Both the position numbers and the translations under genes were made by a program. Shown here in pieces: positions 12,055 through 22,799 of a stretch of DNA of 64,000 bases. Position 1 is the stretch's first letter. Every line of letters begins with the position of its first letter. The stretch covers positions 1-64,000 of the forward strand of contig NZ_RQWN01000001.1 of the NCBI RefSeq assembly GCF_003977755.1. Direction: 5' to 3'. Origin of the DNA: Haloterrigena salifodinae. GTDB taxonomy: Archaea > Halobacteriota > Halobacteria > Halobacteriales > Natrialbaceae. Under the pieces are notes generated by a model. That model was not told where the DNA came from, did not search any database, and was given only the letters and a program-made list of their open reading frames with translations.

Positions 12055-12828
12055 TCACAGTGTTCGCTCGGTGCCGTTCGCGCCGGTCACGCGGAGTTCG
12101 TCGGTCTGCGGATCGTACCGCAGTGATCGTCCCGCGTCGCCGCCGGTATCCTCGGCGACGACCTCGACGCCGTTGTCGGACAGTTCGCGCCGGGCCGCCT
12201 CAACATTTCGGCTGCCGATCGGGGTGTCGACCCGATCGAAGTCGACCATCGTCGCGCCGCCGGCGAGCTTAGCCGAGGCCGACGAGAGGTCGCCGCCGGT
12301 CGCGACGAACGCCGAGAGCATCGCGGCGATCCCCGTGTCGGCGAACTTCGCGTCGCTGTGGTTTTGCCCGTTCGATTCCGCGGCCCGCGGGAGCATGAAG
12401 TGTAAGAGGCCGCTGACGCCCCGGACGTCGTCGTGGACGACGAGACCGAGACAGGAGCCGAGTCCGCTCGTCCGCAGCGGTCGCCCCTCGTCGGTGATCG
12501 CGTACTCCGCGACGCCGACCGAGATGGGGTCTGCCGTCGGCTCCGGGTCGTCGGAGTCGCCGAAGACCGGAATTTCGAAGTCGTCGTCATCACCGTCGCC
12601 GTTGTCGCCATCGGCGTCGCTGTCCTCGTCCGCGCTCGAGTCGTCCGCCGACTCGCCGTAGACGGGGACCTCGACCTCGTCATCGTCGCCGTCGTCCTCG
12701 TCGTCGTCGGTCGCCGGCGTGTAGACGCTGATTCCGAGGTCGTCGGCGTCGTCGCCCTCGTCGTCAGCCCCGTCGTCGGCGCCGTAGATGGTGATCCCGC
12801 CGTCCTCGTCGTTCGCGTCGTCGCTCAT
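12055..12828 (-). CDS. cheD: Chemoreceptor glutamine deamidase CheD with acidic repeat tail
   Basis: This 257-residue protein ends in a complete CheD domain (about 100-257) with the catalytic Cys126 in GLGSCLG and His143 in LLHFMLP. CheD deamidates receptor glutamines and stimulates CheC. The first 95 residues are not part of the usual family. They are Asp-rich and carry four copies of a short hydrophobic-aromatic motif: GITIYG (11-16), GISVYTP (32-38), VPVYGES (54-60) and IPVFGDS (86-92). The start overlaps the cheC stop by four bases, so the two are co-translated. Confidence 0.9.
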   Translation of the reverse strand: MSDDANDEDGGITIYGADDGADDEGDDADDLGISVYTPATDDDEDDGDDDEVEVPVYGESADDSSADEDSDADGDNGDGDDDDFEIPVFGDSDDPEPTADPISVGVAEYAITDEGRPLRTSGLGSCLGLVVHDDVRGVSGLLHFMLPRAAESNGQNHSDAKFADTGIAAMLSAFVATGGDLSSASAKLAGGATMVDFDRVDTPIGSRNVEAARRELSDNGVEVVAEDTGGDAGRSLRYDPQTDELRVTGANGTERTL

Positions 12829-13934
12829 CGTTGGGCCCAGTAGTCCGCGATTTCCTTCGGGCTGAGCAGCAGGTAGACGTCGCAGCTGAGATCGCCCGCC
12901 GTCGATTCGAGCAGCCCCTCGAGGCTGAGGACGAACCGTTCGCCCGGTCCGAGGTTCGCGACCACGTCGTTGACGATCGACGACCGCATGTCGTCGACGA
13001 TCGTCGGCTCGCCGGCCCGGACCGCTACCTCGAGCCGGTCGGCAATCTCGTCGACGAGGCTCGTCGTCACCGCGGCGCCGACCTCGTCGGTCGATCCGTC
13101 GCGGTCGTCGAAGAAGGTGATTGCGGAGCCGATCGGCGGATCGACGAGTTCGACCACCGCGCCGAAGCTCTCCTCGTCGGAAACCGTCTCCGACAGTCGC
13201 TCGGCCGGAACGATATCCAGCGTGTCGACCGCGACGTCGGCGTCGAACTCGGTCGTTTCGAGGAGGTGGTCGCCGATCGACCGCGGTTCCATCCCGTCCA
13301 GCGCCGTCAGCACCTCGAGGAGTTCGTAATCGATCGCGCTGGCGTCGGGGTCCGCGCCGAACTGGGTGCGGGACGTCGCCTCGTCGAGGAAGAGGAACAT
13401 CTGGAACTCGATCTCGTCGTCAGGCGTCACGATCGAACTACGCTGGGAGAGCACGTGCTCGGTCTCCTCGAGGAGTTCGGATCGAACGCCCTCCTCGGGG
13501 TCGAACGCGCTCGAGACGACCGACGGCGGCGACATGACGATCGACTCGCCCTGGACGTTCGCCCAGCCGTCGACATAGCCGCTGACCATCACGTTACAGA
13601 TCTCCTCGACAGCCGACTCGTGTTTCGACGTGTAGCCGTCGTCCGAGGGCAGCATCGGCATGAACGCCTCGGCGAGTTCGCGGGCGCTGGCGCTGTCGAG
13701 GACGGTGACGACCTCCCCCTCGAGATAGCCCTCGAGGGAGATGGAGATGGCGAGTACGTCGTCGCGCTCGAACTCGTCGATCACCGCCGTCGCGGCGACG
13801 ACGTGTAAGCGACTGCAGTCGACCGAGGTGTCGACCCCGGTCAGCCCGGAGAGTCGGTCGCTCGCCCCGTCGGCGCCGTCGATGGCCATCTGGTCGAATT
13901 CTTCTAGCTTTCGTAAGTCGAGTTTCATACTCAT
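12825..13934 (-). CDS. cheC: CheY-P phosphatase CheC family protein
   Basis: This 369-residue protein is longer than a simple CheC (about 210) and seems to contain two CheC-like halves. Only the first half carries the exact active-site pattern S-x3-E-x2-N-x21-P (Ser107, Glu111, Asn114, Pro136). The second half (about 240-369) keeps the fold-like pattern but not the catalytic residues. It should remove phosphate from CheY and bind CheD. It lies between cheA (two bases away) and cheD (ATGA overlap). Confidence 0.85.
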   Translation of the reverse strand: MSMKLDLRKLEEFDQMAIDGADGASDRLSGLTGVDTSVDCSRLHVVAATAVIDEFERDDVLAISISLEGYLEGEVVTVLDSASARELAEAFMPMLPSDDGYTSKHESAVEEICNVMVSGYVDGWANVQGESIVMSPPSVVSSAFDPEEGVRSELLEETEHVLSQRSSIVTPDDEIEFQMFLFLDEATSRTQFGADPDASAIDYELLEVLTALDGMEPRSIGDHLLETTEFDADVAVDTLDIVPAERLSETVSDEESFGAVVELVDPPIGSAITFFDDRDGSTDEVGAAVTTSLVDEIADRLEVAVRAGEPTIVDDMRSSIVNDVVANLGPGERFVLSLEGLLESTAGDLSCDVYLLLSPKEIADYWAQR

Positions 13935-13936
13935 GG

Positions 13937-15952
13937 TTACAGTGTCTCCACGTCGAGGATCATCACGACCTCGCCCTCGCCGAGGACGGACGCCCCGCTA
14001 ATGCCGGGCGCACCGCTCAGGATCCCCTCGAACGGTTTGATAACGACCTCCTCCTGTCCGACGACGTCCGAACAGCGGATGCAGACCTGACGGACGTCCG
14101 TCTTGATCCGGATCACCATGTCGTCGTCGGAGCGCTCGGCGTCGCCGACGTCGAGGGTGTCGTCGAGCGCGATCAGGGGGTACACGCGGTCGTCGTGCGT
14201 GATGATCTCCTGGCCCTCGATCGTCTCGATGGTGAGGTCCTCGAGTTCGGAGATCTCGTCGATGTTCTTGATCGGAATGCCGTACGTTTCGTCCCCGATC
14301 GTCACGAAGAGCACTCGGACGATCGCCACGCTGACGGGGAGCGTGAGCGTGACGCTCGTGCCCTCGTCAGGTTCGCTCTCGACGTTGATCGTCCCGTCGA
14401 CGCCGCGAACGACCTCGTTGACGACGTCCATCCCGACGCCGCGACCGCTGACTTCGGTCACCTCGTCGCGCGTCGAGAACCCCGGGTGGAAGATCAGGTC
14501 GTAGACTTCGGACTCGTCGAGGACATCGATCTCCTCCTGGGTCATGATCCCCTTCTCGACGGCCTTCTCCTTGATCCGCTCGACGTCGAGGCCGGCGCCG
14601 TCGTCCTCGACGGTGATCGACACGCGGTCGCGTTCGCGCTCGCCGGTGAGGCGGATCGTCCCCTCGCGGGGCTTGCCCTTCTCCTCGCGGACCGCCGGCG
14701 GCTCGATCCCATGGTCGACCGCGTTCCGAATGATGTGCATCAGCGGGTCGCTCAGTTCGTTGAGGATCGAGCGGTCCATCTCGTTGTCGACGCCCTCCAT
14801 CTCGAAGTCGATCTCCTTGCCCTGATCGCGCGCGAGGTCGCGGACGACCCGCGGGAAGTTGCCGACGATCTTCTCCAGCGGAACGAGGCGGATCTCGAGG
14901 ACCGTATCCTGCAGGCTCGAGGTGATCTTGCCGTGTTCCTCGAGTTCCTCCTCGGCGGAGACGAGTCCGCTCCCCTTGATGATCTTGCGGAGCTTGATCC
15001 GACTCGTGACCATCTCCTCGACCTGGTTGTAGAGGCGGTCGACCTGTTCGACGTCGACGCGGATCGATTCGACCTCCTTGTTGCGCCGCGAGGCGATCGA
15101 CGTCTCCTCGGAGTTCGATTCGTCGGAGTCGTCGTCGCCGTCCTCGCTTGACGTGTCAGGAGCGGTCTCGACTCCGCTGTCGACCGTCTGCGCGGGCGTC
15201 TCGTCGGCCGTCTCCGTCTCGGTCGCGTCGGCGACCGAATCGACGGTCACCGATTCGACGTAGCGACTCTCCTCGTAGAACGACGCGATCTCGTCGCCGT
15301 CGTCGGCGGCGTCGACTGCCAGTTCGACGTCGAACGTGCCGTCGAACTCGCCGTCCTCGATCGTGTCCCGATCGGGAACGGTGTGGACCAGCTCGAACGC
15401 GTCGGCGTCGCCCGTCGCGTCGAGGACGAACATCGCGTCGACGCGTTTGGCGTCGGTCTCGCCCACGTCGACGGTCGCACGGTAGCGAGATCGGCCGTCG
15501 TCGTCCGCCGCGTCGTCGACCGCGGTGGCGGAGTTCGCAGCTGGCTGTTCGGTCGCCGCTTGAGCGCTCTCGCCGTCGATCGAAGCGCGAATCGATTCGA
15601 TCGTCTCCGCGGGATCGGTCGTCGGCTCGCCGTTCTCGGCGATCTCGTCGACCATCAGCTCGATCTGGTCGACCGCCTCGAAGACGAGATCCATCCGCTC
15701 GGAGGTTACCTCGAGCCGGCCGTCCCGGATCTGGTCGAGGAGGTCTTCGACGGCGTGTGATAGCTCGCTGGCCGTGGCGAAGCCCATGATGCCGAAGTTC
15801 CCTTTGAGGTTGTGGGCGACCCGGAAGACGGTCTCGATCGCCTCGTTACCGTCGGGATCGTTCTCGAGGTCGAGCAGGGCGTTGTTCAGCTTCTGGATGT
15901 CCTCCTCGCTCTCGTGGACGAACGTGGTGATGGCGTCGCTCACCCGGACCAC
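13937..15952 (-). CDS. cheA: Chemotaxis histidine kinase CheA
   Basis: This 671-residue kinase phosphorylates CheY and CheB in response to receptors. The domains are P1 with the phospho-accepting His47 (AHNLKGNFG), a receiver-docking P2 region (about 155-240), an acidic linker, the P3 dimerisation helices (about 300-360), the P4 ATPase with HIIRNAVDHGIE and DDGAGLD, and a C-terminal CheW-like P5 domain. Its start overlaps the end of cheB by 13 bases, which indicates tight translational coupling. Confidence 0.96.
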   Translation of the reverse strand: MVRVSDAITTFVHESEEDIQKLNNALLDLENDPDGNEAIETVFRVAHNLKGNFGIMGFATASELSHAVEDLLDQIRDGRLEVTSERMDLVFEAVDQIELMVDEIAENGEPTTDPAETIESIRASIDGESAQAATEQPAANSATAVDDAADDDGRSRYRATVDVGETDAKRVDAMFVLDATGDADAFELVHTVPDRDTIEDGEFDGTFDVELAVDAADDGDEIASFYEESRYVESVTVDSVADATETETADETPAQTVDSGVETAPDTSSEDGDDDSDESNSEETSIASRRNKEVESIRVDVEQVDRLYNQVEEMVTSRIKLRKIIKGSGLVSAEEELEEHGKITSSLQDTVLEIRLVPLEKIVGNFPRVVRDLARDQGKEIDFEMEGVDNEMDRSILNELSDPLMHIIRNAVDHGIEPPAVREEKGKPREGTIRLTGERERDRVSITVEDDGAGLDVERIKEKAVEKGIMTQEEIDVLDESEVYDLIFHPGFSTRDEVTEVSGRGVGMDVVNEVVRGVDGTINVESEPDEGTSVTLTLPVSVAIVRVLFVTIGDETYGIPIKNIDEISELEDLTIETIEGQEIITHDDRVYPLIALDDTLDVGDAERSDDDMVIRIKTDVRQVCIRCSDVVGQEEVVIKPFEGILSGAPGISGASVLGEGEVVMILDVETL

Positions 15953-16986
15953 CCGTCGAGCGCGTTAACGATTCCTTCGGCGAGCCGTTTCTCCGGCAAC
16001 ACCATGTCGACGTCGCCGGTTTCGACCGCGCGGCCGGGCATGCCGAAGACTCTGGAGGTCTCCTCGTCCTGCGCGATGGTCTTTCCGCCGGCGGCCTTGA
16101 TCGCGGAGAGTCCGGCCGCGCCGTCGGCGCCCATACCGGTAAACACCGCCCCGACGAGGGGCCCGGAGACCGCCTCGGCGGCCGACCGCATCGTGACGTC
16201 GATCGCGGGTTTGACGTTGTGGATCTTGGGCCCGTCGTCGTGGGCGACCGCGAGCTCGCCGTCGCGATCGGCCGTCACCTCGAGGTGGCGACCGCCCTTT
16301 GCGACGACCGCGTCGCCCGCCCCAACCGTATCGCCGTCCGATGCTTCTCGACACTCGTATGCTGTTCGCTCGTTCAGACGCATTGCAAAACGTCCGGTGT
16401 AGTGGTCTGTCATGTGTTGTACGATGAGAACTCGTAACTTCGCTTCTCGCGGCAGTTCTGCGAGCACCCGTTCGAGGACCTGCGGTCCGCCGGTCGACGA
16501 CCCGATGACGACCGTCGATCCGTCCGGGACCCGGTCGGCCGGAACCGTCGACTGAACCGGCTCCGCGCCGGCGTCCTGGGTAAGCGTCGTCGGATCGACC
16601 GCGGCCGCGGCCCGAACCTTCTCGACGATCTCGTCACGCTGGGACCAGATGTCGACCGAGAGCTGCCCGCTCGGCTTCGCGATGAAGTCGACGGCCCCCC
16701 GGTCGAGGGCCTCGAACGTCTCCGACGCCCCGTCGTTTGCTCGAGCGCTGATCACCAGCATCGGCGTCGGTCGCTCGGCCATGACCTCTTCGATCACTTC
16801 CAGGCCGTTCTTGTCCGGCATGCTGATGTCGATCGTCGCGACGTCGGGATCGCGCTCTAAGATCGCGCGGACGGCGCTGGTCCCGTCCTCGACCGCCTCG
16901 ACGACGTCGATTCCGGCCGCCGTGAGAATCTCGGAGAGAATCTCGCGCATAACGCCGGAATCGTCCGCGATAACGGCGCGAACCAT
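15940..16986 (-). CDS. cheB: Chemotaxis methylesterase CheB
   Basis: This 348-residue protein removes methyl groups from, and deamidates, chemoreceptors. The receiver domain has phospho-acceptor Asp53 (TIDISMPD). The catalytic domain has the Ser of GSSTGGP (163-164), His191 (VQHM) and a C-terminal Asp in TGMGADGA. Its ATG shares one base with the cheY stop, and its end overlaps the cheA start. Confidence 0.96.
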   Translation of the reverse strand: MVRAVIADDSGVMREILSEILTAAGIDVVEAVEDGTSAVRAILERDPDVATIDISMPDKNGLEVIEEVMAERPTPMLVISARANDGASETFEALDRGAVDFIAKPSGQLSVDIWSQRDEIVEKVRAAAAVDPTTLTQDAGAEPVQSTVPADRVPDGSTVVIGSSTGGPQVLERVLAELPREAKLRVLIVQHMTDHYTGRFAMRLNERTAYECREASDGDTVGAGDAVVAKGGRHLEVTADRDGELAVAHDDGPKIHNVKPAIDVTMRSAAEAVSGPLVGAVFTGMGADGAAGLSAIKAAGGKTIAQDEETSRVFGMPGRAVETGDVDMVLPEKRLAEGIVNALDGWSG

Positions 16987-17345
16987 CAGGAGACGACATC
17001 GTGAATCGCTTCTCGGATCGTGCTGTTCTCGAACGGCTTCATGATGTAGCCGTCAGCCCCGGCCTCGATCGCCGGCTTCATCCGCTCCTGTTGGGTCACG
17101 CTCGTACAGAAGATGACCTTGATACCGGGAGCTTTCTCCTTGATCGTGGCCGTCGCCTCGACGCCGTCGATGCCCGGCATCACCATGTCCATCATGATGA
17201 CGTCGACGTCGTAGGTGTCGACCGCTTCGATCGCTTCCGCTCCGTTTTCGGCCTCCGCGACGACGGAAAACTCCTCCTTGATCGCTTCTTCCAACACTTC
17301 TCGCATCACTTCGGAGTTATCGACGATCAGTACCTTCACTGTCAT
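16986..17345 (-). CDS. cheY: Chemotaxis response regulator CheY
   Basis: This 119-residue single receiver domain signals from CheA to the archaellum switch. The phospho-acceptor is Asp53 (MMDMVMPG), with acidic Asp9 before it and Lys near 104 (MKPFEN). It is the first gene of the leftward che operon and has a clear TATA element upstream. Confidence 0.95.
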   Translation of the reverse strand: MTVKVLIVDNSEVMREVLEEAIKEEFSVVAEAENGAEAIEAVDTYDVDVIMMDMVMPGIDGVEATATIKEKAPGIKVIFCTSVTQQERMKPAIEAGADGYIMKPFENSTIREAIHDVVS

Positions 17346-17370
17346 AGTGGTGGCCTTCTAACGACACCCG

Positions 17371-17376
17371 TATAAA
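17371..17376 (-). promoter_or_regulatory. TATA element of the cheY-cheB-cheA-cheC-cheD operon
   Basis: On the minus strand TTTATA begins 31 bases before the cheY ATG (17345), as for a leaderless or very short-leader transcript. The rest of the 17346-17547 gap is AT-rich and should also hold the rightward parA promoter; TTATGTA at 17517-17523 has matching spacing for that gene. Confidence 0.55.
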
Positions 17377-17547
17377 GAATACGGCTAACTACTATGATTT
17401 CTTACCATATAGGTTTGGACTCAAATCTCGATACGAGGTTTGAGTTGATATCGTCTCCATATACGGTTACTTAGAACGCGTTTGTCCAGTTATCGGCCTT
17501 TCAACAGCCATCGGAGTTATGTAGTATGCGGCAGAACCGTTGACCGA

Positions 17548-18336
17548 ATGGCGCGACTCGCGCGGCTCTGTGTAACCAATCAGAAAGGGGGCGTCGGAAA
17601 GACGACAGTGGCGATCACTCTCGCTGGCGCGCTCAGTCAGCGAAACAGGAACGTCCTCTTCGTCGATCTCGATCCCCAAGGCAACGGCACTGAGGGGCTC
17701 GGCCTCACCGACGCGTACGACGCGGCTCCGCCGACGTTGTTCGACGCGCTCGTCGACGACTCGTCGGTCTCGTTCGACGAGCTCGTCTGGCATCACGACG
17801 AGATGGACGTGCTCCCGAGCAACATCGACATGACGGCCGCCGAAGCGTCGCTGTTGCAACTGGACGACGGCGAACGGCGGCTCGCAAAGCTGCTCGACAC
17901 CGCGGATTACGGCTACGACTACGTGATCGTCGACTGCCCGCCCCACCTCGGGATGCTCACCGACAACGCGCTGTATGCCGCGCCCAACCTCGTCATTCCG
18001 GCGCTGGCCGAATCGACGAGCAAGCGCTCCCTTGAGTTGCTGTTCGACTACACGCGGGCGTTCGAGATGGAACACGACGTGCAGATCGACGCCAAATCGC
18101 TGGTCGTCAACCGGATCGAAAACACCGGCGAGGCGACCGAGATGCTCGAGTGGTTCGAGGAGGCCGTCCCCGACGTCCCTACGTTCGAGGTCCGGAAACG
18201 CGTCGCCCTCCAGCGGGCGTTCTCGAGCGGCCGGTCGATCTTCGCGGCCGACGAGGAGATCGACATGTGCGAGCGGTTCCGAGCGGTCGCGGCCTCGCTC
18301 GACGAGGAGTTTTCCACCACGGAGATGACAGTATGA
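17548..18336 (+). CDS. ParA/MinD-family ATPase coupled to cheW
   Basis: This 262-residue ATPase has the deviant Walker A NQKGGVGKTT (residues 12-21), the Walker A' DLDPQGNGTEGLG and the Walker B VIVDCPPHLGM. These are typical of ParA-type positioning or segregation proteins. It overlaps the following cheW by ATGA and is divergent from the cheY operon. No ParB or centromere-like repeats are seen, so a role in placing chemosensory arrays, as known for bacterial ParC and PpfA, is more likely than plasmid partition. That role is inference. The start at 17548 directly precedes the conserved N-terminus. Confidence 0.9.
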   Translation: MARLARLCVTNQKGGVGKTTVAITLAGALSQRNRNVLFVDLDPQGNGTEGLGLTDAYDAAPPTLFDALVDDSSVSFDELVWHHDEMDVLPSNIDMTAAEASLLQLDDGERRLAKLLDTADYGYDYVIVDCPPHLGMLTDNALYAAPNLVIPALAESTSKRSLELLFDYTRAFEMEHDVQIDAKSLVVNRIENTGEATEMLEWFEEAVPDVPTFEVRKRVALQRAFSSGRSIFAADEEIDMCERFRAVAASLDEEFSTTEMTV

Positions 18337-19490
18337 CTGACGAACGAGCAGAACGAATCAAACGGATCCGGAACCGATCCCGATCGCAGGCGACTGCGAA
18401 CGCGAACAACGGCGACGAAGACGAATCGGCGGCGGACGACGCCGCCGACGCGGACGCCGCGCCCGAGACGGACGATTCTGGGACGAACGACCCCGACTCG
18501 AGGGATCCCGAACCGACCGCGACCGACGCCGCCGCCGGCAGCGCCGATCGGTCCGACGACGGTGTCGAAACGGCTGCCGCCGCCGAGTCCGGTTCCGGTG
18601 ACGTCTCCGAACCGGCTTCCCACGACGTCCCCGAGCACTCCGGCGGTTCGGCCGAGCGAGCGACCGAGCCGACCGGACAGACGACGCAGCCTCGGGCCCG
18701 GGCCGCCGAACCGGCCGCACGGACGGGTTCTCACGCGGCGTCCGCCCCGGGACGGGGCGCCGAACCAGAAGCGTACGGCGGCGGGCAGGCCGCCCGCGCC
18801 GATCCGGCGACCCGCGCGAACAACCCACTCACTCCGGCCGCGGAATCGGCAGCCGCGGGCGACGGAGCTGCGGCGGGTCGCGTCCAGCAGTTCGATGCGG
18901 CCGACGGAATGGAACCGATCGTGGACGCGACGGCGCTGGAAACCGACACGGCGTCCGGGGACGGGTCGGTCCTCCGGGGTGCGGTCGGCGCTGAAGACGG
19001 GATGTTCGCCGACGACACCGCGTTGAACCACTCGGCTCGCAGCGACGAGAGCACCGTTCAGGTCCTCGAGTTCTCGCTCAACAACGACCGGTACGCGATC
19101 GCGATCGATCGCATCAGCGCGATCGTGGAGATGAAAGAGATCACCCGGTTCCCGCGCGGTCCGGAGGCGATCGACGGCGTCACGGACCTCCGCGGTGAGA
19201 TCACGGCGGTCGTCGATCCGACGGCCCTGTTGAACATCGAGCGGAGCGAACCTTCGGACGAGCAGTACATTGTCGTGCTCAACCGCGGCGACGACAAGCA
19301 GAAACTCGGCATCAGGGTGACCGAAGTCCGTCAGGCCGCGACGTATCACGAGGACCAGATTGACGAGTCTCGGGGCGCCGACGACAACGGCCACGAGTTC
19401 GTCGACTCGGTCATCAAGAAACCCAACGGCGATCACACGAGCCTGATCTCGTGGCTGGATATCGACAGCATCATCGAGCAGATCAAGTAA
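18333..19490 (+). CDS. cheW: CheW coupling protein with long disordered N-terminus
   Basis: This 385-residue protein carries one CheW domain at the C-terminus (about 245-385: VQVLEFSLNNDRYAIAID, then GVTDLRGEITAVVDP). A plain CheW is about 140-170 residues. The first 240 residues here are low-complexity, rich in Ala, Asp, Glu, Ser and Thr, and begin with a basic patch (RIKRIRNRSRSQ). It should link receptors to CheA. It is translationally coupled to the ParA gene. Confidence 0.9.
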   Translation: MTDERAERIKRIRNRSRSQATANANNGDEDESAADDAADADAAPETDDSGTNDPDSRDPEPTATDAAAGSADRSDDGVETAAAAESGSGDVSEPASHDVPEHSGGSAERATEPTGQTTQPRARAAEPAARTGSHAASAPGRGAEPEAYGGGQAARADPATRANNPLTPAAESAAAGDGAAAGRVQQFDAADGMEPIVDATALETDTASGDGSVLRGAVGAEDGMFADDTALNHSARSDESTVQVLEFSLNNDRYAIAIDRISAIVEMKEITRFPRGPEAIDGVTDLRGEITAVVDPTALLNIERSEPSDEQYIVVLNRGDDKQKLGIRVTEVRQAATYHEDQIDESRGADDNGHEFVDSVIKKPNGDHTSLISWLDIDSIIEQIK

Positions 19491-19793: not shown

Positions 19794-20225
19794 ATGGCGA
19801 CGAAGTCGCTCCAGTCCGACGCCGACGGAACGCACGTCCTCGAGTTCGACCTCGGCGAGAACCGCTACTGCGTCGAGATCGGTTACATCGCCGAGATCGT
19901 CAACTCCGACGAACTGACCGCGATCCCGAACACGCCGGCCCACGTCGAGGGTGTCATGGACCTCCGCGGCGAGACGACCAGGATCGTGAACCTCAAGACG
20001 CTTCTCGGGCTCGAGGACGACGGATTCGGGGATCGGATCATCGTCTTCAAACGTAAACGGGGAGCACCCGAACGGATCGGCTGGTTCGCCGACGAAGTCC
20101 ACCAGGTGCAGGCGCTGGCGTCCGACGTCGTCAACACGGCGGTCGACGGTGACGGGATCGCCGGCGTCATCCGACGAGAAGACGAGTTCGTCGTCTGGGT
20201 CGATCCGACCGCGATCAGGATCTGA
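19794..20225 (+). CDS. cheW2: CheW coupling protein, single-domain
   Basis: This 143-residue protein is a standalone CheW (HVLEFDLGENRYCVEIGYIAEIV, then GVMDLRGETTRIVNLKTLL). It lacks the long tail of the first CheW. The ATG at 19794 is chosen because the family begins just after it and the upstream in-frame part is Arg-rich non-coding sequence. cheR follows after 49 bases, probably in the same transcript. Confidence 0.9.
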   Translation: MATKSLQSDADGTHVLEFDLGENRYCVEIGYIAEIVNSDELTAIPNTPAHVEGVMDLRGETTRIVNLKTLLGLEDDGFGDRIIVFKRKRGAPERIGWFADEVHQVQALASDVVNTAVDGDGIAGVIRREDEFVVWVDPTAIRI

Positions 20226-20274
20226 CGCGGACCCGAGCGCATTCGAGACCGACTCTCACGACGGAGCTGACTCC

Positions 20275-21114
20275 ATGACACACACCGACGATTTCGACCG
20301 CCTCCTTTCGCACATCGAATCCCGGTACGGGTTCGCGACGAGTTACTACGCCGATCGGTATCTCCGCCGCCGAATCCGATCCCGGCTGTCGAGAAACGGT
20401 CTCGAGCGAGACGCCTACAGCAGCTACCTCTCGTTGCTCGAGGACGACGACGGCGCCGAGCAGACGGCGTTGCTCGATACGCTGAGCGTCAACGTCACGT
20501 CGTTCTTCCGCGACACCTCCGTCTGGGACGAGCTTCGAGGCGTCCTCGAGACGCTCCAGGAACGGCGGGACCGATCGCTTTCGGCGTGGAGCGTCCCCTG
20601 CTCCGACGGTCGCGAGCCGTACTCGCTGGCGATGCTCGCTCGGGAAAGCGCGGGGATCTCGTCCCATCGCCTCTCTATTCGCGCCAGCGACATCGACGAA
20701 AACGCGCTCGAACGGGCGCGAAACGGCGTCTACGAACAGCAACGAACGTCCAACCTCGAGACGGAGCTGTCGTATCTCGACGCGTACCGCTCCTACCTCG
20801 ACTGTCCGGACGATCGAGACGACGACGACGACGTGGAATCCTACCGAGTGGGGTCCTCGATCAAGCGAATGGTCGACTTCGATCGGTTCGATCTGATCAC
20901 CGATTCGATCGGATCGACCTACGATCTGGTGCTCTGTCGGAACTTCTTCATCTATGTCGACGACCGCCACCACCGAACCGTGCTCGAGAAGCTCGCCGAC
21001 GCGATCCGTCCGGGCGGCTATCTGGTTATCGGCAAGTCGGAATCGCTGACGCGGAACATCGAGAACGCGTTCGAGCCGGCCGACAGGGCGTCGCGGATCT
21101 ACCGGCGGCAGTGA
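20275..21114 (+). CDS. cheR: Chemotaxis protein methyltransferase CheR
   Basis: This 279-residue enzyme methylates receptor glutamates using S-adenosylmethionine. The N-terminal helical domain (about 1-75) is followed by the Rossmann domain. The motifs are NVTSFFRD, the SAM loop CSDGREPYSLAML (usually SxGEEPYS; here Arg replaces the first Glu), ASDIDENAL and LVLCRNFFIYVD. It completes the adaptation set with cheB. Confidence 0.93.
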   Translation: MTHTDDFDRLLSHIESRYGFATSYYADRYLRRRIRSRLSRNGLERDAYSSYLSLLEDDDGAEQTALLDTLSVNVTSFFRDTSVWDELRGVLETLQERRDRSLSAWSVPCSDGREPYSLAMLARESAGISSHRLSIRASDIDENALERARNGVYEQQRTSNLETELSYLDAYRSYLDCPDDRDDDDDVESYRVGSSIKRMVDFDRFDLITDSIGSTYDLVLCRNFFIYVDDRHHRTVLEKLADAIRPGGYLVIGKSESLTRNIENAFEPADRASRIYRRQ

Positions 21115-21210
21115 TCGCCGGCGGAGACGACTGCCGAACGGGGTGCGGCGTCGCCCGTTCGCCGCTATCCATCGGGATGATTGATGTGTCTCGCACGCGT
21201 CGACAGCGAT

Positions 21211-22176
21211 ATGTCCACGCCGACCGACGTTCTGGTGCTCCGGAAGGGAACTCACGGCATGCCGATCGAACGGTACGCGGGCGCGCTCCGCGACCGGCTG
21301 CCCGACGGCACCGTCGACCTCGCCCGCACGCCGACGGCGGAGCGCGACCGGATTCGGGACGCCCGCTTCGTCACCGGGATGACCCTCGAGGACGGGCTGC
21401 TCGAGGCCGCCGAGAACCTCGAGGTCTTTGCCTGCGCCTACGCGGGGACCGGCCACCTTCCCCTCGAGGAACTCGAGGAGCGCGGCGTCGCCGTAACGAA
21501 CGCCTCGGGCGTCCACGGACCCAACATCGGCGAGCACGTGCTGGGCGCGATCCTCCGCTTCACCCGCCGGTTCCACGTCGGCGCGCGCCAGCAGCGCCGC
21601 CGGAAGTGGCGCCACTACCAGGCCGAGGAACTGCAGGGGTCGACGGTGACGATCGTCGGCCTCGGCGCGATCGGCGAGTCGGTCGCCGACCGCCTCGAGC
21701 CCTTCGGCGTCGAGACGATCGGCGTCCGATACACGCCCGAGAAGGGCGGTCCGACCGACGAGGTAGTCGGTTTCGAGGGCGACGGGTTCGAGGACGCGCT
21801 CGCACAAACCGACTATCTGGTGCTCGCGTGTCCGCTCACGGAGACTACGCGCGGGCTGATCGACCGCGAGGCGTTCGTGACGATGGATCCCGGCGCGGTC
21901 CTCGTCAACGTCGCCCGCGGGCCGGTCGTCGACACCGACGCGCTCGTCGAGGCGCTGCGTTCGAGCTGGATCCGCGGCGCGTCGCTGGACGTCACCGATC
22001 CCGAACCGCTGCCGGAGGACCACCCGCTGTGGACCTTCGAAAACGTCCAGATCACGCCCCACAACGCCGGCCACACCCCCGAGTACTACGAGCGACTCGC
22101 CGATATCGTGGCCGAGAACGCCCGCCGGTTCGCCGACGATCCCGACGCGGCCCTCGAGAATCAGGTCTGCCCCTGA
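21211..22176 (+). CDS. D-2-hydroxyacid dehydrogenase
   Basis: This 321-residue NAD(P)-dependent enzyme interconverts 2-keto and D-2-hydroxy acids. The Rossmann motif is VGLGAIGES (about 151-159). The catalytic Arg lies in NVARGPVVD, Glu in DVTDPEPLPEDHPLW, and His in TPHNAGHTPE. The ATG at 21211 is preferred over upstream TTG/ATG codons because the fold starts with TDVLVLRK. The substrate is not determined. Confidence 0.88.
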   Translation: MSTPTDVLVLRKGTHGMPIERYAGALRDRLPDGTVDLARTPTAERDRIRDARFVTGMTLEDGLLEAAENLEVFACAYAGTGHLPLEELEERGVAVTNASGVHGPNIGEHVLGAILRFTRRFHVGARQQRRRKWRHYQAEELQGSTVTIVGLGAIGESVADRLEPFGVETIGVRYTPEKGGPTDEVVGFEGDGFEDALAQTDYLVLACPLTETTRGLIDREAFVTMDPGAVLVNVARGPVVDTDALVEALRSSWIRGASLDVTDPEPLPEDHPLWTFENVQITPHNAGHTPEYYERLADIVAENARRFADDPDAALENQVCP

Positions 22177-22355
22177 ACGCCGTCCGGTTCCGTTTACCGG
22201 AGGATTCGACTGCAGTTTTTTCACGGTACCGCACCAATTCCCGGTATGAAACCAGCAGTCGCCCGTCGATCCCGCGGTCGGAACGCTCGCGATCGAACGA
22301 AACCGTTGTCTAGAGCGGACCGAAACCGAACGAACCGGGCTCGAGCGAAGGACCA

Positions 22356-22799
22356 ATGACGCTCTCGTTCGACGGACCGATCCTCGTCCCCGTCGCGACC
22401 CCCGAAGACGGCGAGCGAACAGCCGCGGCGCTCGCCCCGTATCTCGCCGACTCGAGTCGGACGATCGTCGTCAACGTGATCGAGAAGGCCGGCGGCGCGC
22501 CCGACAAGGCCGGCGTGGAACAGCGAAAGGAGTACGCCGAGGAGATCTTCGATCGTGCGCGCGGGCCGCTCGAGGCGACCGACGCGACCGTCGAGACGGC
22601 AGTCCTCTACGGCACCGATATCGTCGAGCGGATCTTCGCCGAAGCGGAGGACCGCGAGGTCGACGCCGTCGTCTTCGCGGCTCGAAAGGGGAACCGGCTG
22701 GCGGAACTGCTGACCGGCGACGTGGCGCGACGGCTGGTCAAGGAGGCGTCAGTTCCGGTGGTCGCGCTACCGCTCGAGTCGGCCCCGCAGGAGTCGTGA
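22356..22799 (+). CDS. Universal stress protein UspA family
   Basis: This 147-residue protein has the UspA fold: PILVPVATPEDGERT at the start, VNVIEKAG on the second strand, and the C-terminal GDVARRLVKEASVPVVALP. The nucleotide-binding loop is degenerate (ARKGNRLAELLTGDV instead of GxxGxxxxxxGS), so ATP binding is uncertain. Confidence 0.85.
   Translation: MTLSFDGPILVPVATPEDGERTAAALAPYLADSSRTIVVNVIEKAGGAPDKAGVEQRKEYAEEIFDRARGPLEATDATVETAVLYGTDIVERIFAEAEDREVDAVVFAARKGNRLAELLTGDVARRLVKEASVPVVALPLESAPQES

Follow-up and report, generated by a model that had tools for sequence, protein, structure and literature searches.

The first 64,000 nucleotides of contig NZ_RQWN01000001.1 of the haloarchaeon Haloterrigena salifodinae (assembly GCF_003977755.1, forward strand), hereafter the window, contain a chemosensory (che) locus in which a ParA-type ATPase gene, parA, is joined to a gene for a long CheW protein, here called cheW-long. 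The ATG of cheW-long and the TGA of parA share the letters ATGA, a 4-bp overlap; the pair lies divergent to the genes cheY-cheB-cheA-cheC/X-cheD, and a second, short cheW gene (cheW2) follows cheW-long. Overlap and divergent orientation, both reported in a preliminary description of this DNA, are confirmed by the coordinates of the open reading frames (ORFs). The pair is made up as follows:

17548-18336, + strand: parA, ParA-type ATPase of 262 amino acids (aa) with the Walker motif QKGGVGKTT (Pfam, alignment, tree with haloarchaeal plasmid ParAs)
18333-19490, + strand: cheW-long, 385 aa, ParP-like architecture (Pfam, conservation, AlphaFold2 (AF2) model)
18333-18377, + strand: N-terminal basic peptide of cheW-long, codons 1-15, a putative ParA-binding element common to plasmid adaptors (conservation, motif)
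18378-19052, + strand: acidic linker of cheW-long, codons 16-240, of low conservation and predicted to be disordered (alignment, AF2, charge)
19059-19481, + strand: CheW domain of cheW-long, residues 243-383, at the position of the C-terminal domain of the plasmid adaptors (Pfam; no match to the adaptor C-domain hidden Markov model (HMM))

CheW-long consists of a 242-residue extension and one CheW domain, the sole Pfam match at E ≤ 0.01 (residues 243-383, E 7.8e-25). The long ‘tail’ attributed to this protein in the preliminary description is real as a long part, but it is an N-terminal extension and not a tail. Across 15 aligned CheW-long sequences, invariant columns number 8/15 in residues 1-15, 0/160 in residues 16-175 and 73/145 in residues 241-385, with a mean top-residue frequency of 0.85 both in the first 15 residues and in the CheW domain, and of 0.27 in residues 16-175. 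Net charge is +4 over residues 1-20 and -27 over residues 21-200. An AF2 model of low confidence (mean pLDDT 42), used for the N-terminal helix and disorder only, places a helix at residues 3-18, has pLDDT < 50 over residues 19-239 and forms the CheW strands. An inner linker motif resembling TVSYDE occurs in 10/20 CheW-long proteins.

The ATPase matches Pfam AAA_31 (2e-42) and CbiA (1.9e-20), both over their cut-offs, and the invariance of K13, G14, G15, G17 and K18 in an alignment of 19 sequences places it in the ParA/MinD superfamily of deviant Walker A ATPases; arginines R160, R189, R216 and R218 are likewise invariant in this alignment with relatives. For the mapping of DNA-contacting residues, the profile-based alignment with the Soj chains 6iub and 8jmj extends only to residue 183. 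A genome scan for relatives, covering the best 80 of 141, found an ATPase of 98% identity in Haloterrigena salina JCM 13891 (locus L015), and the 19 nearest relatives (L015-L033; 63-98% identity; Natrialbaceae by record or taxonomy label) all have the parA-cheW-long pair. A cheB gene adjoins the pair in 18/19, the exception being L018, where no cheB, cheA or cheY lies within the stretch examined. The CheW start stands at the -4 offset in 20/20 loci (window and L015-L033, the CheW of L028 being cut by a contig end), so that the overlap is conserved throughout the nearest haloarchaeal loci, and because of this constancy the pair is not attributed to chance.

No parB adjoins the window parA, since its neighbours are cheY and cheW, and a repeat search of 17340-17560 returned no repeat array; the absence of an adjoining parB noted in the preliminary description holds, and the window shows no array of the kind expected for centromere repeats. 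The next relatives of the ATPase (L034-L042) are none of them at che loci. ParAs of 52 plasmid records match the window ParA at E ≤ 1e-40, with up to 60% identity, and phages phiCh1 and phiH carry relatives. In 23 of the 25 non-che loci of the same ParA class (class 1; L034-L042 and L095-L110) an adaptor gene directly follows parA, with start offsets of -4 in 20 loci, -8 in two (L107, L108) and +52 in one (L099), whereas L106 and L110 have none after parA. The ATGA overlap also occurs in plasmid relatives and so is no peculiarity of che loci. These adaptors are small proteins composed of an N-terminal peptide, an acidic linker and a shared C-terminal domain, and CheW-long has the same layout, with CheW in place of the shared domain.

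Searched with an HMM of the adaptor C-domain, 29/31 non-che loci, 25 of which trained the model, have the domain, as against 0/24 che loci. Among 20 further non-che regions, two gave no recognised ParA ORF and the 18 with a readable ParA all contain the C-domain (18/18), several of these regions repeating genomes already counted. All seven adaptors scanned (7/7) match PHROGs 29165/26668, families of no known function, and the adaptor family is annotated as hypothetical in the records (downstream of parA in L181-L186, L095-L105 and L107-L109). An AF2 model of the C-domain is helical after a YLP stretch and appears by eye to comprise a strand and two helices, for which a ribbon-helix-helix (RHH) fold was considered. 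No Pfam family exceeded its cut-off in 20 adaptors and no Foldseek match fell under E 3; the VIA comparison returned no RHH row and was headed by domains without evident relation (best Z 6.3), and the adaptor profile, run against solved structures, gave four rows at E 1.4-4.2, none significant. In the two loci with no adaptor gene, L106 (Halobacterium salinarum plasmid PHS1) and L110 (Haloplanus sp. GDY1 plasmid), a wider-family ParA lies within ~30 nt after gvpO of a gas vesicle cluster, which is possibly a third cargo or a chance neighbourhood on the plasmid.

Set against type I Par plasmid partition, the che-linked pair shares the homology of its ParA to plasmid partition ATPases, while an adaptor in the ParB role beside parA is absent from the che loci; with the adaptor C-domain gone, the pair is not a partition system by membership. 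The preliminary description had counted a parB or plasmid origin beside parA in relatives against its proposal. Such a neighbourhood does exist outside the che loci, where plasmids have a ParB-like adaptor and some of the genes lie near orc1/cdc6, but not at the che loci. As these lack the adaptor C-domain, the plasmid relatives are read as the source of the pair and not as its refutation.

Kinship between the CheW-long extension and the adaptors is concentrated in the first residues. An N-terminus like that of CheW-long is found in 19 of the 23 class-1 adaptors (L034-L042, L095-L104), and the motif [DESG]R[AS].R[LI][RKS]..R occurs near the start of 20/20 CheW-long proteins, 19/19 class-1 adaptors and 0/9,504 controls (Met starts from 129 haloarchaeal loci), the adaptor set for motif and HMM comparisons excluding L002, L105 and L107-L109. 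With an HMM of adaptor N-termini, CheW-long scores above every control in 13/20 cases (22 or 32 residues) or 11/20 (26 residues), and no control reaches the median. The proposal that a basic patch at the start of CheW is the ParA-binding part fits this comparison, in that the candidate patch is the only conserved portion of the extension and is shared with plasmid adaptors.

A second lineage combines different components in the same manner. In all four genomes of genus g3 (Natrialbaceae; G020, G057, G087 and G209) among 117 genomes of the family, another ParA, another long CheW and cheB stand in a row, with the CheW start overlapping by -4 in G057, G087 and G209 and lying 12 nt on in locus L145 of G020. 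The L145 ParA is 35% identical to the window ParA; its identity to a Halocatena salina plasmid ParA is 68%, and to three others 69%. When residues 1-53 of the G020 CheW were compared with 72,556 plasmid records (E ≤ 10), a single record matched (72% over 39 residues, E 2e-11), namely the adaptor adjoining the same Halocatena ParA. ATPase and CheW N-terminus are therefore both of another, matching plasmid type. The idea of a dedicated array-positioning ParA fits this pattern, a different type of patch occurring together with a different ParA. Genes near the L145 ParA, CheW and cheB look by eye like archaellum genes. Upstream of parA, TTTCTAANNTTAGAAA sites (≤ 3 mismatches) are present in 7/10 class-2 non-che loci, two being copies of others, and in 0/4 second-lineage che loci; the non-che loci closest to this lineage, L182, L190 and L191, also have none. 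Several copies of this palindrome precede the class-2 parA of L184, L186, L193 and L194, and they may represent a haloarchaeal centromere or operator.

A quick tree of 69 ParA sequences, including neither ParC nor a named MinD, unites the 20 che-linked ParAs of the first lineage (che1) in one clade (SH-aLRT 100) beside 17 non-che rows, other non-che rows lying outside; the rows labelled as plasmid comprise all non-che rows not otherwise marked, some of them chromosomal (L036) or on contigs of unknown kind. The ParAs of the second lineage (che2) fall within a different class, with four non-che rows (support 99), and their single origin is not rejected (p-value of the approximately unbiased test, p-AU, 0.46). 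One origin of che1 and che2 ParAs together was tried and is rejected, the forced clade being 231 log-likelihood units lower (p-AU 1.6e-42; quick tree). In a CheW tree excluding ORFs > 600 aa and matches < 45 bits, the CheW domains of both long kinds group together (SH-aLRT 91). Two histories are compatible with these sequence trees: each lineage may have undergone its own fusion, or a single fusion may have been followed by an exchange in which another plasmid cassette supplied a new ParA and peptide. In both, ParA and peptide would have arrived together; the plasmid-cassette origin and the pairing are well supported by the comparison.

Occurrence of the pair follows one type of che locus. Window-type ParA (E ≤ 1e-105) is present in 28 of the 117 Natrialbaceae genomes, all of them among the 29 with che1-type CheB (E ≤ 1e-124), and parA and this cheB lie ≤ 1 kb apart in 27 of the 28, being on different contigs in G077. 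In a class-wide sample of 194 genomes, ParA reached E ≤ 1e-105 in 16, every one belonging to the window's family. The sole genome with che1-type CheB and without this ParA, G247, has no match at E ≤ 1e-75; no ParA-like ORF occurs in the 15 kb examined at its che locus (L141), distant ParAs being on other contigs, and cheY is directly divergent to cheW2. From its first ATG, the G247 CheW that groups with the second kind of CheW-long starts MTDEHTDPTTG and has no basic motif.

Most haloarchaeal che loci examined are without the pair, as only one of 39, L145, has a ParA-like ORF (window ParA at E ≤ 1e-4) in the stretch examined (~15-19 kb); the 39, G247 and L161 among them, were hand-picked from CheB matches and are not a random sample. 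L161 (G000:C2:473000-492000) is the second che locus of the window's genome, holding all three of its other CheW-domain matches and no ParA-like ORF in the 19 kb examined, and it contains a very long CheA frame of 1,359 codons. In genomes of genus g22 (e.g. G170, G103, G038), many CheB matches contain one TGA, perhaps from alignment overrunning the stop.

The remaining features of the window locus are the che genes and the elements between cheY and parA:

19794-20225, + strand: cheW2, short CheW without the extension (Pfam, CheW tree)
16986-17345, - strand: cheY, nearest gene of the divergent che operon (Pfam)
15940-16986, - strand: cheB (Pfam; CheB matching across genomes)
13937-15952, - strand: cheA (Pfam)
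12825-13934, - strand: CheC/CheX-type gene (Pfam)
12055-12828, - strand: cheD (Pfam)
17506-17521, + strand: GGCCG-N6-TTATG element, window variant, about 42-43 nt before the parA ATG (looser form in 20/20 che1 loci)
17371-17386, - strand: the same GGCCG-N6-TTATG element before the divergent cheY, window variant (looser form in 16/20 loci)
17419-17445, no strand: 12-nt inverted repeat with a 3-nt loop between cheY and parA (repeat search)

The element common to the upstream regions of cheY and parA, a motif found after the fact, has the exact form TTGGCCGNNTNNNTTATG, with six occurrences in 4/6 genomes, all in the cheY-parA intergenic region, and 0 control matches; L018, one of the four loci without the element on the cheY strand, has no cheY there. 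Sharing of this element suggests that parA-cheW is expressed together with the che operon. No wider regulon is claimed, because with one mismatch allowed in three genomes the six further sites were about as frequent as control sites (five). By eye, within 150 nt upstream of parA, the window and L015 contain the 12-nt inverted repeat and the other 18 loci lack it; the region 17340-17560 also has a single 10-nt inverted repeat, its copies 36 nt apart, and a single 12-nt direct pair, 83% alike. Beyond cheW2, at 20215-22356, a minus-strand ORF of 713 aa and a plus-strand ORF of 575 aa overlap, with no Pfam match.

In our judgement parA-cheW-long very probably arose by conversion of a plasmid partition cassette to a ParP-like system that positions chemosensory arrays, a reading that draws on the architecture of CheW-long, the kinship of both ParA and peptide with plasmid cassettes, the missing adaptor C-domain, the pairing with one che type and the matched second lineage. 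Partner proteins provide the analogy. ParP binds ParC through an N-terminal part, which is followed by a linker and, at the C-terminus, by a CheW-like (AIF) domain with which it enters arrays (PMC5706961), and for partners of ParA/MinD ATPases a positively charged, disordered N-terminus has been shown or suggested to be the acting part (PMC10241942); by this analogy CheW-long would couple arrays to ParA. On plasmids, the basic N-terminal peptide of the small adaptor would contact nucleoid-bound ParA-ATP, its localisation depending on the nucleoid or DNA, and the C-terminal domain, putatively DNA-binding, would hold the plasmid. In the che version the CheW domain would take the place of that C-terminal domain, and the cargo would therefore be the chemoreceptor-CheA array instead of DNA. 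Seated in the array via its CheW domain, CheW-long may reach ParA via the flexible acidic linker of ~220 residues, where its arginine-rich N-terminal helix would bind ParA-ATP and stimulate the ATPase, with the outcome that arrays would be spaced, moved or held at the pole, and inherited. The purpose of joining a partition pair to chemosensing is probably that the cell places its sensors, and two different plasmid kits seem to have been joined to chemosensing in this way.

Were the pair still a DNA partition module, ParA would segregate a replicon and CheW-long would bind DNA or another adaptor. The inclusion of plasmid partition ATPases among the nearest non-che relatives and the retention of the Walker residues and the four invariant arginines agree with this; nonetheless it is very unlikely, for the adaptor C-domain is missing from every che locus scored, the partner is a CheW beside che genes, the presence of the pair tracks one che type, and TTTCTAANNTTAGAAA sites occur at class-2 loci outside che but at none of the four second-lineage che loci, albeit with the three closest non-che loci also lacking them. 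A regulatory role, in which ParA would act through CheW-long on array assembly, receptor clustering or che expression without moving or spacing arrays, could draw on the upstream element common to parA and cheY and on the promotion of array formation by ParP besides localisation (PMC5706961), but appears improbable: ParA/MinD ATPases with such partners are described as cargo positioners (PMC10241942), and no sequence feature indicates regulation only. Scarcely credible is a MinD- or FlhG-like membrane ATPase marking the pole for archaellum and arrays alike. MinD4 and MinD2 do affect both in Haloferax volcanii (PMC11588486). The window ParA scores far under the cut-offs of the curated NCBIfam MinD models (minD_arch 52.1 against 201.75 bits; minD_bact 41.5 against 212.9), its overlapping partner is a CheW, and the tree, although it includes no named MinD, groups it with plasmid ParAs. 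The archaellum-like genes presumed near the second kind of locus are the other point in favour of such an ATPase.

Several observations weigh against the positioning reading or parts of it. The class-1 motif is short, and its expression was composed after both sets had been seen; those CheW-long sequences that do not exceed all controls with the adaptor N-terminus HMM fall among them, and the reverse HMM, from CheW-long to adaptors, is weak, exceeding the best control in 3/19 (18 residues) or 0/19 (22 residues). Different N-termini are found in five adaptors of more distant kinship, from plasmids or phages (L002, L105, L107-L109). DNA binding by the adaptors is argued from operon context, as the fold searches with their C-domain gave no clear match, and CheB is found at E ≤ 1e-40 in 110/117 Natrialbaceae genomes, but either pair in just 32. 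Because the CheW domains of both lineages group, an exchange of one ParA module for another in place is no less possible than independent fusions in the two lineages.

In bacteria, ParA-type ATPases are known to position protein cargo, but to our knowledge the way in which a DNA segregation ATPase gains a new cargo is mostly a matter of conjecture. In the present case the sequences show probable donors, the recipient and a relative that does not have the pair, and in each of two lineages the ATPase and the peptide correspond to the same plasmid type. We consider it rather likely that haloarchaeal plasmid partition cassettes are modular cargo-positioning kits, such that a new C-terminal cellular domain makes a new system; the chemosensory system of Natrialbaceae would have taken two unrelated cassettes, each with matching ParA and peptide, on a path from the partition of selfish elements to cellular positioning. 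A specific and testable claim follows, namely that the choice of the ParA that moves the array lies with a peptide of 15 residues, and the analysis further draws attention to the partition adaptors of haloarchaeal plasmids and phages as a large, widespread and uncharacterised family.

An active mechanism for array placement through MinD/ParA homologues has been proposed for archaea (PMC6509185), and the preliminary description held that a dedicated positioning ATPase is little described there. No description of a parA-cheW-long pair was found among the matches listed in the open-access literature (titles and starts of abstracts, with subscription papers and preprints outside this scope). The genome paper of Natrialba magadii describes che loci with two cheW genes, and in its main text ‘para’ occurs only in para-aminobenzoate (PMC3403918). 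The claim is qualified by MinD4 and MinD2, which already affect array placement in Haloferax volcanii (PMC11588486). With the present pair, a positioning ATPase that is dedicated and che-linked is indicated for archaea, a group in which the portions of the literature examined tie only MinD proteins to array placement.

Among known systems, the Haloferax volcanii MinD4 and MinD2 belong, like the window ParA, to the ParA/MinD superfamily of ATPases, and they influence where arrays lie in a haloarchaeal cell; they differ in being MinD proteins, for which the text consulted describes no che-linked gene or dedicated CheW partner. The partner TlpT in the PpfA/TlpT system of Rhodobacter sphaeroides is receptor-like, whereas here a CheW whose N-terminus is of plasmid type has that place. 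TlpT is discussed as a possible bridge (PMC5706961). With the haloarchaeal plasmid and phage ParA-adaptor cassettes (phiCh1, phiH) the pair shares the ParA family, mostly the ATGA overlap, the acidic linker and, in the nearer ones, the basic N-terminal motif, the difference being that the adaptor ends in its shared C-domain (PHROG 29165/26668) and not in CheW. Vibrio ParC/ParP offers a ParA-like ATPase and a partner with an N-terminal ATPase-binding part (putative here), a long linker and a C-terminal CheW-like domain, in contrast to which the window pair is archaeal, its ParA and peptide are related to haloarchaeal plasmid cassettes, and its linker is acidic where that of ParP is proline-rich. 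It looks as if the window pair works like ParC/ParP, while in a tree without ParC its ATPase groups with haloarchaeal plasmid ParAs.

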